DNA of 30,426 nucleotides, from IMG/VR virus record IMGVR_UViG_3300023180_007329, positions 1-30,426 of that record, one strand, 5' to 3'. Source of the DNA: a virus. The first letter of the stretch is position 1; each line of letters starts with the position of its first letter. The position numbers were made by a program, and so were the translations under genes. Under the pieces are notes generated by a model, which saw nothing but the letters and a program-made list of their open reading frames with translations, was not told the origin of the DNA and made no database searches. Positions 2,939 through 15,200 of this stretch are shown here, piece by piece.

Positions 2939-4295
2939 AAATATAATCCTTTAATCTATTTCCTTCAACAGGACGATCTAAATAGTCTTTACCAAGAATC
3001 CAAAGATTAGGATTTTTTTCTTCTAATTGGTTAATCCATGTTTCATAACAATCTTTAACACCACTCAGACCTCTTGTATATTGTGCGCCTACTGTATGAA
3101 AAGCATTACTCCACCAAATGAGTGAGTTTTCTTCCTGAGTTACTATATTAGTAACTTTTTCAGGATTTTCACAAATATCACAGTGAATATAAGAATGAGA
3201 TAATGTTTTATATCTATCCCAATGGTTTTTAATATCTTTTTCTGTTCCCCACCATTTTATCTCTCTTTCCCAAAGTTCTTTTCTTGAGAGAGTTTGTGTC
3301 TCATTCCCACCAGTTTCATTAATTTGATATTTTCTTTGAGCGTAGTCTAAAAAAGCTGGATAATCTTCGCCATCCCATTCTTTTAAGAGTAGCTTTTTAA
3401 AAGCTAAAGCAGCTTTACTGTAATCATAATAAACTATTTCACAATCATCAGTAAAAGCATAATGATGTAAAATCATATTAGGCTTAAAACTAGCAGCTAC
3501 GGCATAGAGTTTATTAATTGGTTTTTCTATGTTAACATATTTTAAATCAGCGTAGTTTTCTGTATTCCAAAAGAATACACATTGTTGAGCATAGTTAACA
3601 ATATTTGAAATCCAAGATAATTGATGTTCAAGATCTGCCGCACTTGTTGTAGGGTAGATATATTCTTTAAATTCTCTTATTTTAGGATGAAAATTATATA
3701 CTGTTAGATCATTTTGTAGACTGACATTAATAAAATTCCAACCATCAACAAGGGGGGTACAGATTGTAAGTTCTTCAGTTGGTTTTAGAGATAAAGGTGT
3801 ATAGTCATCATGTATGTCTTTCACATGTCTTTCTGCTCTTACTACAAACTCTTCTCCTGAGTTTTTGTTACCAAACACAGGTTTATCGAATTTTTTATAA
3901 TAATTAAGGTTAACTAACATGCATTGTTTATGTAATCCATAATACCCTTGTGCACCTGTTGGGTTGTTTTTATTCTTTTTGTTTTTATCCATTATATGCC
4001 CAGTAATAAAGAAATCTTGTTTACTAATCCATTTCTCTATAAAAGTGAAAAAAGAAGCATCTTTGATAATATGACCAACAGATTGAACTATACAATAGTC
4101 TACATCATGTTTTAAAGCTTCATCTAATACATCATTAATATTTTGCTTTACTATAATAGGTCCAAAATATTTAAATCTGGTAAAAAACTCAGTAATCTCT
4201 TTATTCTTTTGCGCTTGAGATAGGTTATGAGATGTACGTGTATCATCATAGATGCCTACAACGTAGTTTTTATTTTTACCCATGATTCTTTTCAT
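2904..4295 (-). CDS. Large phage protein of unknown function, glycosyltransferase-like N-terminus
   Basis: A 463-residue protein I cannot assign. Residues about 10-190 alternate strands and helices, with DYCIVQSVGH and FFITGHIMDK, which recalls the nucleotide-sugar fold of GT-A glycosyltransferases. I see no clear DxD motif, so this is weak. The C-terminal half is rich in Trp and aromatic residues (KELWEREIKWWG, SLIWWSNAFHT) and has one CDIC pair. It lies between two 2OG oxygenase genes, 6 nt after one and overlapping the next by 35 nt, so it is probably part of the same modification unit. An alternative start (MGKNKN) lies 12 nt inside. Structure prediction would be the quickest route to a function. 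Confidence 0.7.
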   Translation of the reverse strand: MKRIMGKNKNYVVGIYDDTRTSHNLSQAQKNKEITEFFTRFKYFGPIIVKQNINDVLDEALKHDVDYCIVQSVGHIIKDASFFTFIEKWISKQDFFITGHIMDKNKKNKNNPTGAQGYYGLHKQCMLVNLNYYKKFDKPVFGNKNSGEEFVVRAERHVKDIHDDYTPLSLKPTEELTICTPLVDGWNFINVSLQNDLTVYNFHPKIREFKEYIYPTTSAADLEHQLSWISNIVNYAQQCVFFWNTENYADLKYVNIEKPINKLYAVAASFKPNMILHHYAFTDDCEIVYYDYSKAALAFKKLLLKEWDGEDYPAFLDYAQRKYQINETGGNETQTLSRKELWEREIKWWGTEKDIKNHWDRYKTLSHSYIHCDICENPEKVTNIVTQEENSLIWWSNAFHTVGAQYTRGLSGVKDCYETWINQLEEKNPNLWILGKDYLDRPVEGNRLKDYIYAYDCQDEISL

Positions 4296-14026: not shown

Positions 14027-14211
14027 CCTCATATAGTTGGTGGCCCGTTCTGTTGCTAGGTGGAACCATACCCCATGAGACTATGCCGCTAGGCGGATGT
14101 CCTCGATTACAAAGTTATCGTTTGCAATTATTTAAGTCTTGCGGTTGAGGTCGCTTGCGCACCTGCTTCTCCACTCGCCTAATCAGCACCTGTCGATCCT
14201 GGTTCAGCCCC
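14027..14211 (-). ncRNA. ssrA: tmRNA, coding piece of a permuted (alphaproteobacterial-type) gene
   Basis: The RNA begins GGGGCTGAACCAGGATCGAC at 14211, matching the universal tmRNA 5' end (acceptor strand plus D-loop). At 14125 a resume codon GCA opens a frame reading ANDNFVIEDIRLAA and ending TAG at 14083-14081, a typical proteolysis tag with LAA terminus and the alphaproteobacterial ANDNF start. Between these is a GNRA-capped hairpin (AGGTGC-GCAA-GCGACCT). After the tag, CTCAT (14079-14075) and ATGAG (14032-14028) can close a stem. The 3' boundary is approximate and touches the next gene's ribosome-binding site. tmRNA rescues stalled ribosomes and tags their products. Its 3' acceptor half lies upstream at 14450 onward, so the gene is circularly permuted. 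Confidence 0.88.
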
Positions 14212-14223
14212 ATCATAAGCACA

Positions 14224-14430
14224 CTAGTCTTGAAGACCCCATTTGATTCGCAACCAAAGTCTATCATACAAGTAATAACTTGTAGTCCAAACAAGATTTA
14301 TAATGATAACAGGTAATATTGCTGTTGTATAATCTTGTCCAGTAATCAATAACATAATATAAGTTGAAAGTATAACCCAACATCTGTATATAAGTGCTTT
14401 GACTAAAGTTCTTTTTTTTGTTGCCTTCAA
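14224..14430 (-). CDS. DUF2061 small membrane protein encoded between the tmRNA halves
   Basis: A 68-residue protein with a basic start (KATKKRTLVKALIYR) and two hydrophobic segments. LLITGQDYTTAI and the ending WTTSYYLYDRLWLRIKWG match DUF2061, a small bacterial inner-membrane family with the pattern 'Y-Y-x-x-(E/D)-R-x-W'. Function of the family is unknown. The start appears to be TTG at 14430 (weak GGA 5-8 nt before it), only 20 nt after the tmRNA CCA end. The stop is 12 nt before the 5' G of the tmRNA coding piece, so the gene fills the spacer that is normally cut out of a permuted tmRNA precursor. It would be translated from the precursor or the excised spacer. Confidence 0.72.
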   Translation of the reverse strand: MKATKKRTLVKALIYRCWVILSTYIMLLITGQDYTTAILPVIIINLVWTTSYYLYDRLWLRIKWGLQD

Positions 14431-14449
14431 TGATATTCCAATGTGTTTA

Positions 14450-14520
14450 TGGTGGAGCTGACGGGCACTGCCCCCGTGTCCAGTCTACCTTTTGGTTCGC
14501 TTCTTCGAAGCTCTGTATCC
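14450..14520 (-). ncRNA. ssrA: tmRNA, acceptor piece (CCA-bearing 3' half)
   Basis: On the minus strand GGACACGGGGGCAGTGCCCG is followed by TCAGCTCCACCA, ending at 14450. CAGCTCC pairs over all 7 positions (one G-U) with GGGGCTG at the start of the coding piece. ACGGG/CCCGT form a 5-bp T-stem closing a 7-nt loop (GGCAGTG) that lacks the usual TTCRA. CCA is encoded. The 5' limit (about 14520) is a guess from typical acceptor-piece length, and I could not find by eye the long P2 helix to the coding piece. Order acceptor-spacer-coding on the same strand is the permuted arrangement. It may overlap the small frame at 14485-14625. Confidence 0.75.
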
Positions 14521-14625
14521 TAAGTAATCAGGTTGTTCTTTAACCTTGATTTTAAAAATTCTGATAAACCAGCGTTCAAACCATTTTTGTAAGTAGCACA
14601 TAATTTTTTCTATGTTATTGTCCAT
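14485..14625 (-). CDS. Possible small basic protein (46 aa) overlapping the tmRNA acceptor piece
   Basis: A frame from ATG 14625 to TAG 14485 encodes MDNNIEKIMCYLQKWFERWF at the start and a very basic tail ending YRASKKRTKR. It overlaps the upstream oxygenase gene by 16 nt. There is no good ribosome-binding site, and its last third lies in what should be the acceptor RNA. Either a real small gene abuts the tmRNA, or the frame is chance. Amphipathic and basic; no family recognised. Confidence 0.35.
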   Translation of the reverse strand: MDNNIEKIMCYLQKWFERWFIRIFKIKVKEQPDYLGYRASKKRTKR

Positions 14626-15200
14626 ATATTTATGGCTTTTTTTCTTCCGTGTAAAGTGCCGTTTGTATGGAGATACTGACTATCAAAAACGCAGATAGAA
14701 CCAATTTCCCAATTAAAAACGTGTTTTACACTTAACCCTTCTAATAAATCATACTCAAAATGAGACAGATATTTATTATAGATTTCAAGATCAAATGGCT
14801 TATTATTAATGTTTTGAACTAGATGTTTATTTTCTTTGTTAAGTTTGAAACTTTCTTTATACCATTTATTATTAAAAATAATAGTAGAAGCTTTATTTTG
14901 TATTTCTAAAGGTATAACTATATGCTTATCGTGTCGTTTTCCAAACTCAGTATCTGTATGAATGTCTAAATTATAGTTTAACACTGAAAAAAATATTGAT
15001 TTAGGATATGAGTCAACATTCACTTTTTTAAGAGTATTAATCAACCAATCTTTAGGCCAATTATCTTCATGCCAATTAAATCCTGTTTTTAACCAAAGCT
15101 CTTTTCTGGGTATAATATAATCATCTTTAAAAGACATCCATTTTAAAAGTGCTTTAATCTCATTATTTGAAACAATGTTTTCATGAATCTGTACTGTCAT
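14610..15200 (-). CDS. 2OG-Fe(II) oxygenase
   Basis: A 196-residue dioxygenase. Metal ligands: His81 and Asp83 (LDIHTDTEFG) and His178 (FDSQYLHTNG). The basic residue after it is Arg186 in LHGRKKAINIWT, the expected position for binding 2-oxoglutarate. IPLEIQNKASTIIF between the ligands forms the central strands. Proteins of this size and layout are common in marine phages, and no substrate is known. It overlaps the preceding 94-residue gene by 20 nt and precedes the tmRNA locus. It shares little sequence with the other oxygenases here beyond the metal site. Confidence 0.8.
   Translation of the reverse strand: MTVQIHENIVSNNEIKALLKWMSFKDDYIIPRKELWLKTGFNWHEDNWPKDWLINTLKKVNVDSYPKSIFFSVLNYNLDIHTDTEFGKRHDKHIVIPLEIQNKASTIIFNNKWYKESFKLNKENKHLVQNINNKPFDLEIYNKYLSHFEYDLLEGLSVKHVFNWEIGSICVFDSQYLHTNGTLHGRKKAINIWTIT

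Follow-up and report, generated by a model that had tools for sequence, protein, structure and literature searches.

Exchangeable small-protein genes in the spacers of phage permuted tmRNA genes

Phage permuted tmRNA genes appear to carry exchangeable small-protein genes that lie within the tmRNA precursor and are expressed from it, a reading to which we give a probability of about 0.85. We analysed a 30,426-nt stretch of marine phage DNA (IMG/VR record IMGVR_UViG_3300023180_007329), here called the window, in which a membrane-protein frame fills the spacer between the two halves of such a gene. The single case picked out in an earlier sequence-only reading is one instance of a general architecture, and protein genes nested in tmRNA spacers are apparently a wider, undescribed arrangement. 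Since the frame in the loop is complete and conserved, with different genes in different phages, one transcript appears to supply both RNA and protein. The proposal first made for the window, that its spacer is at the same time a protein gene, is well supported by purifying selection, by recurrence, by unrelated frames in the same slot and by the lack of a promoter in long spacers.

The window locus and its relatives

The Rfam model RF04321 matched a permuted tmRNA at positions 14511-14081 on the minus strand with 98.8 bits (cut-off 47, E 2.5e-18), and the alpha_tmRNA model RF01849 matched the same gene at 14561-14039 (-) with 77.5 bits. This covariance search placed the acceptor piece where the sequence-only reading had put it, and the halves at 14450 and 14211, paired through GGGGCTG and CAGCTCC, had been located correctly. 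The CCA-bearing acceptor (3') piece, comprising the T arm and CAGCTCC-ACCA (14450-14511, -; CCA end at 14450), is encoded upstream of the 5' coding piece (14039-14211, -), which starts GGGGCTGAACCAGGATCGAC with its 5' G at 14211. Pairing of CAGCTCC (14460-14454) with GGGGCTG (14211-14205) is complete (7/7) and includes G3-U70. The tag reading frame, ANDNFVIEDIRLAA* (14081-14125, -), has the Ala resume codon and a hydrophobic LAA end, and aligns with the tag region of RF04321. ARAGORN did not call the window tmRNA gene, which may explain why such genes stay unannotated.

The window spacer spans 238 nt (14449-14212, -). It opens with a hairpin 5' arm, TAAACACATT (14440-14449, -), which forms 9 of 10 pairs with the 3' arm, AGTGTGCTTA (14216-14225, -), a pairing backed by covariation over 67 distinct sequences; the 3' arm overlaps the stop codon of the frame, and TGAT then runs to 14212. 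The loop holds a complete 68-codon gene for a DUF2061-like membrane protein of 68 aa (14224-14430, -) with a TAG stop. A weak Shine-Dalgarno-like GGA (14437-14439, -) lies 6 nt 5' of its TTG start, and the motif in relatives is AGGAG (L004) or AAGG (L006). The gaps between frame and tmRNA halves had been put at 20 and 12 nt; we measured 19 and 12, so the second, from the end of the stop to the tmRNA 5' G, was exact and the first was one base off. The frame itself proved real, whereas its membership of DUF2061 fell under the Pfam cut-off: PF09834 is the best match of the window protein at 19.6 versus 23.1 bits (E 0.0012). DUF2061 was matched by all 11 homologues scanned (E up to 0.1, best 1.5e-4), and with the window score below the cut-off "DUF2061-like" is therefore the safer label. 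AlphaFold2 modelled a two-helix hairpin (residues 2-29 and 34-61, pLDDT 76) and the best 19-residue hydropathy is 1.76; the product is predicted to be a small helical membrane protein.

Just upstream of the acceptor piece, no strong sigma70-like promoter was evident in the window. The T4-late-promoter-like CATAAATA (14627-14634, -) is a weak candidate for an upstream promoter, identified by consensus match only. A 46-aa frame at 14485-14625 (-), ending ...KVKEQPDYLGYRASKK, overlaps the acceptor piece and bears a weak resemblance, by eye and alignment only, to the spacer protein of another locus (L307, KVKPQPGYLGRDMARK).

Sixteen loci in IMG/VR carry a relative of the window protein. The frame-in-spacer layout is common to L002, L003, L004, L005 and L006 (RF04321 104-108 bits) and is found too in L014 and L016, whose records end inside the spacer; the window architecture was met again in records from seven other metagenomes, of which two break off within the spacer. 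Both hairpin arms and the frame are kept in L007 and L008, where no tmRNA is detectable. In L009 (76% protein identity) the gene lies just upstream of a permuted tmRNA with a short, 28-nt hairpin spacer; the tag frame of this tmRNA (3300-3520 of that locus) apparently has 29 codons (ANASKGEVTVSGKNVKFSARTAQRQTLAV), far above the usual length. More distant relatives have the DUF2061-like gene elsewhere, and free-standing homologues exist. The frame had no match in INPHARED phages, and the family was absent from the bacterial and archaeal genomes searched.

Three related in-spacer copies are intact, with Nei-Gojobori dN/dS of 0-0.20 against the window and one another and 0.13-0.20 in pairs differing by more than one base; by the same method, L007 against L006 gave 0.048. 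L006 starts with ATG at the alignment position of the window TTG. As judged from these comparisons, the window-type frame is under purifying selection. Decay of the frame beside conserved tmRNA halves, named beforehand as the observation that would tell against a coding spacer, was not seen: relatives with the window spacer have an intact frame.

Spacers across phage permuted tmRNA genes

We surveyed permuted tmRNA genes with pattern scans followed by a small Python rule set requiring a T-arm, acceptor pairing and a downstream tag motif. The rule set assigned most spacers; the survey is biased by its patterns, two of the three favouring one arm type, and by its restriction to the matches listed. 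Among these matches were 149 unique phage permuted tmRNA genes, of which two, automatic pairings in L179 and L281, were excluded as mis-joins, leaving 147 genes for later statistics. Phage spacers among the matches listed have a median length of 74 nt (quartiles 46 and 105) and normally form a hairpin with arms of about 11 bp. Most start like TAAACACA and end like TGTGTTTATGAT, the arms that two of the three patterns favour. Pairing in the arm helix is 95.5% across 67 distinct sequences, and 11/11 of its pairs show two-sided changes; for arms and acceptor stem taken as a whole structure, 0/500 shuffles equalled the real value by any measure.

The 30 chromosomal spacers found in sampled alphaproteobacterial genomes are 10-48 nt long, so the earlier statement that the spacer is usually short holds for bacteria. 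Two spacers of 89-90 nt with phage-type arms belong to second tmRNA copies in Microvirga genomes; in L338 and L339 (Microvirga genomes G086 and G082) the second permuted tmRNA stands beside a normal chromosomal copy. Inspected by eye, the long alphaproteobacterial spacers L440 and L441 showed no small-protein gene in the phage layout.

Frames were counted in the long spacers (minimum 95 nt) of the survey's listed matches, which form 32 clusters. A same-strand ATG frame spans the loop in 21 of the 32, an antisense one in 3, and dinucleotide shuffles predict 3.4 loop-spanning frames versus the 21 observed (z 10.6). This count does not depend on the window's TTG start, because the cluster representative L006 uses ATG. 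Loop frames mostly start at spacer nucleotides 19-27, often with a Shine-Dalgarno-like motif just past the arm. A stop ending exactly 12 nt short of the 5' G is common to several frames of unrelated sequence, which is partly due to the TAG carried by the arm; other frames stop inside the tmRNA 5' piece, at +13 nt (L040, L107, L137, L243, L235) or +42 nt (the Melnitz family, L158).

Spacer frames are unrelated among phages and include DUF2061-like, DUF6356, zinc-ribbon-like and small membrane proteins. The spacer of L111 encodes a DUF6356 protein above the cut-off (PF19883, E 4.2e-11); others encode a 78-aa hydrophobic protein (L276), a 75-aa protein (L146), a 21-aa single hydrophobic helix (L056) and cysteine-rich proteins that are zinc-ribbon-like by eye (L150, L274), and Pfam matches to DUF6585 and an Rce1-like family were weak and under the cut-off. 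In-spacer DUF6356 copies gave pN/pS of 0.06-0.21 with pS up to 0.81. Among the matches listed, 10 DUF6356 relatives lie at tmRNA loci and 38 lie where no tmRNA was detected. In L380 and L381 (about 1482-1925), a DUF6356 frame and an overlapping membrane-protein frame share a spacer of ~440 nt, resembling a tiny operon. The TCCTCC acceptor of L380 was considered as a false match and this was rejected, since the E-value scan (43.8 bits, E 2.7e-7, slightly under the cut-off) supports a real permuted tmRNA.

Pfam found no homing endonuclease domain in the window protein or ten other spacer proteins, and the spacer ORF as a homing endonuclease or other mobile gene was set aside on that ground. Likewise, cmscan of the window and related loci found no intron family in the spacers, and a self-splicing intron or known structured RNA as spacer content was rejected for lack of an Rfam match. 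Many spacers are frame-free and look like structured RNAs. Those of 65-80 nt form families with conserved internal sequence; one such group comprises L188, L210, L249, L320, L108, L193, L268 and L272, and others are L222/L232/L308 and L174/L190/L265/L288/L313. The frame-free spacers of L188, L222 and L265 matched no Rfam family.

The window and L002 are identical at 237/238 spacer positions, at 51/60 in the acceptor piece and at 88/125 (about 70%) in the 5' piece. L235 and L163 agree fully in the 5' piece and to 96% in the acceptor piece yet differ in the spacer frame, and L174/L111, L118/L207 and L040/window join similar tmRNA pieces to different spacers. On this evidence, spacers are swapped as cassettes between tmRNA genes, in both directions, and recombination at conserved tmRNA sequence and arms would be the simplest reading of the swaps.

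A spacer frame is also present in cultured Methylophilales phage Melnitz, for which there are four isolate records (PMC9004378). Its spacer is 142 nt long, and a Shine-Dalgarno-led frame, MFKWLSKTRLVVITRDYF..., extends into the tmRNA 5' piece by 42 nt (L370 1234-1377; MZ577095.1, about 44824-44967); the frame is unannotated, the record having only SsrA over it. All 21 IMG/VR matches listed for the Melnitz-type query lie at a permuted tmRNA and 0 are free-standing. The Melnitz-type N-terminus is present in 18 of these 21 loci, with a shortened frame in L432, and L437-L439 match only via the tmRNA-encoded end. Melnitz-type copies have pN/pS mostly of 0.2-0.4. In the related L433-L436, which have their own stop, this N-terminus is fused to the YEDLCK C-terminus of the L284/L194 type; such chimeric frames suggest recombination inside spacer frames.

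With sigma70-like sites defined by a score of at least 10/12, and mononucleotide shuffles for comparison, an upstream site was found in 86/144 phage tmRNA genes among the matches listed versus 8/144 in shuffles. In most, the -10 box ends 54-64 nt before the acceptor strand. Inside long spacers the count was 0/45, and a separate promoter for the spacer frame was rejected, none being found across these 45. The Melnitz tmRNA lies just downstream of an early promoter (PMC9004378).

A proposed shared transcript and its alternatives

At the level of sequence, the comparisons demonstrate selection on the frames, covariation of the arms, rules of strand and position, and cassette exchange. The precursor would close a long helix made of the acceptor stem, the ACCA/TGAT junction and a spacer hairpin of about 10-11 bp, whose loop the small-protein gene would fill. 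A single transcript from upstream of the acceptor piece would then be both tmRNA precursor and mRNA, with ribosomes entering just past the 5' arm and stopping at the 3' arm. Permuted precursors are probably processed by RNase P and tRNase Z (PMC3985003); RNase P and tRNA 3'-end processing would cleave at the 5' G and behind CCA, so that both tmRNA pieces come free and the spacer is left as a mini-mRNA closed by its hairpin. We propose that, because the transcript is shared, the protein would be made with the timing and promoter of the tmRNA. A shared transcript for tmRNA and protein is all that the sequences indicate; the link between processing and expression suggested in the sequence-only reading is hypothetical.

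Against nesting stand the window's TTG start, its weak Shine-Dalgarno motif and the lack of a strong promoter just upstream. The many frame-free spacers, the DUF2061-like and DUF6356 genes that lie outside tmRNA genes, the tmRNA-less L007 and L008 and the survey's preference for one arm type weigh on the same side. The start, the motif and the Pfam score under the cut-off would also fit a chance open frame, untranslated, in an AT-rich structured spacer, but purifying selection and free-standing homologues speak against it, as do the DUF6356 match above the cut-off in another spacer and the strand bias of 21 versus 3. Comparative evidence thus strongly disfavours a chance frame, which we consider very improbable. 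We give slightly less credence still to an ordinary protein gene beside a tmRNA that is a decayed relic or a metagenome assembly artefact. The contigs are metagenomic and L007 and L008 have no tmRNA, yet the covariance scores are high, G3-U70 is invariant, the stems covary, and the arrangement recurs in separate assemblies and in four sequenced Melnitz isolates.

A narrower version of the nesting model, rather than an alternative to it, has slightly better than even odds in our judgement: the loop would be only a docking site, a real expressed gene sitting in an insert-tolerant loop under a strong promoter, with processing and expression independent. Unrelated frames, structured-looking RNAs and short hairpins share the one loop. 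DUF2061-like and DUF6356 genes also live outside tmRNA genes, and the frame persists in L007 and L008, where tmRNA is undetected (dN/dS 0.048 for L007 against L006); the protein is therefore not dependent on the tmRNA. Melnitz-type proteins, however, are found in spacers only (21 loci with tmRNA and 0 free among the matches listed), and frames fit the arms precisely, a fit that permits coupling and does not demand it. We think it unlikely that precursor processing controls translation, such that frames ending at +13 or +42 would become nonstop mRNAs made by RNase P and tagged by tmRNA in ArfA-like feedback. Those two sets of frames favour this coupling, as does the analogy of the ArfA mRNA, which RNase III cleaves and trans-translation monitors (PMC3985003). 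The window frame, however, ends ahead of the 5' G, a separate stop is present in the Melnitz-related L433-L436, and run-on into tmRNA is expected in 2/3 frames because the arm sequence is fixed. Somewhat more doubtful again is a full switch by tmRNA maturation, in which the uncut precursor would be translated, cleavage would free the mini-mRNA, and run-in frames would go nonstop and be policed by tmRNA in a self-regulating loop.

Significance and comparison with known systems

If small-protein genes are nested in tmRNA precursors as we propose, a processed non-coding RNA precursor can also carry exchangeable protein genes. The arrangement would reveal a hidden set of small phage proteins, missed by annotation because the region is labelled tmRNA or not called, and may help to explain the retention of long-spacer permuted tmRNA genes in marine phages. 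Direct testing is possible with cultured phage Melnitz on OM43 strain H5P1.

The sequence-only reading knew of no described case, and we likewise found no report of a protein gene in a permuted tmRNA spacer in the open-access literature searched; the parts of the 2025 tmRNA database paper considered here describe none (PMC11915505). Permuted two-piece tmRNA genes (RF04321/RF01849) are known from Alphaproteobacteria and from the marine phages Melnitz and Mosig, among others (PMC9004378), and the window gene resembles them in gene order, acceptor stem with G3-U70, tag frame and covariance match. Unlike the sampled bacterial chromosomal genes, with spacers of 10-48 nt, its spacer holds a protein gene. 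The parts of the database paper considered here do describe extra content in intervening sequences of permuted tmRNA genes, a tRNA-Ala gene in one and a repetitive element in another (PMC11915505); foreign sequence in the spacer is common to both, whereas here it consists of recurrent, selected protein genes. ArfA nonstop regulation in E. coli (PMC3985003) is an analogy for frames that stop beyond the RNase P site only, and not for the window frame. The same parts of the database paper report group I introns with homing-endonuclease genes in tmRNA T-loops (PMC11915505), which likewise place a protein gene within a removed segment of the tmRNA precursor. Unlike them, the phage frame lies between CCA and the 5' G, with no intron family and no homing-endonuclease domain, and removal of the phage spacer would be expected by tRNA-type cleavage, in contrast to the splicing of group I introns.
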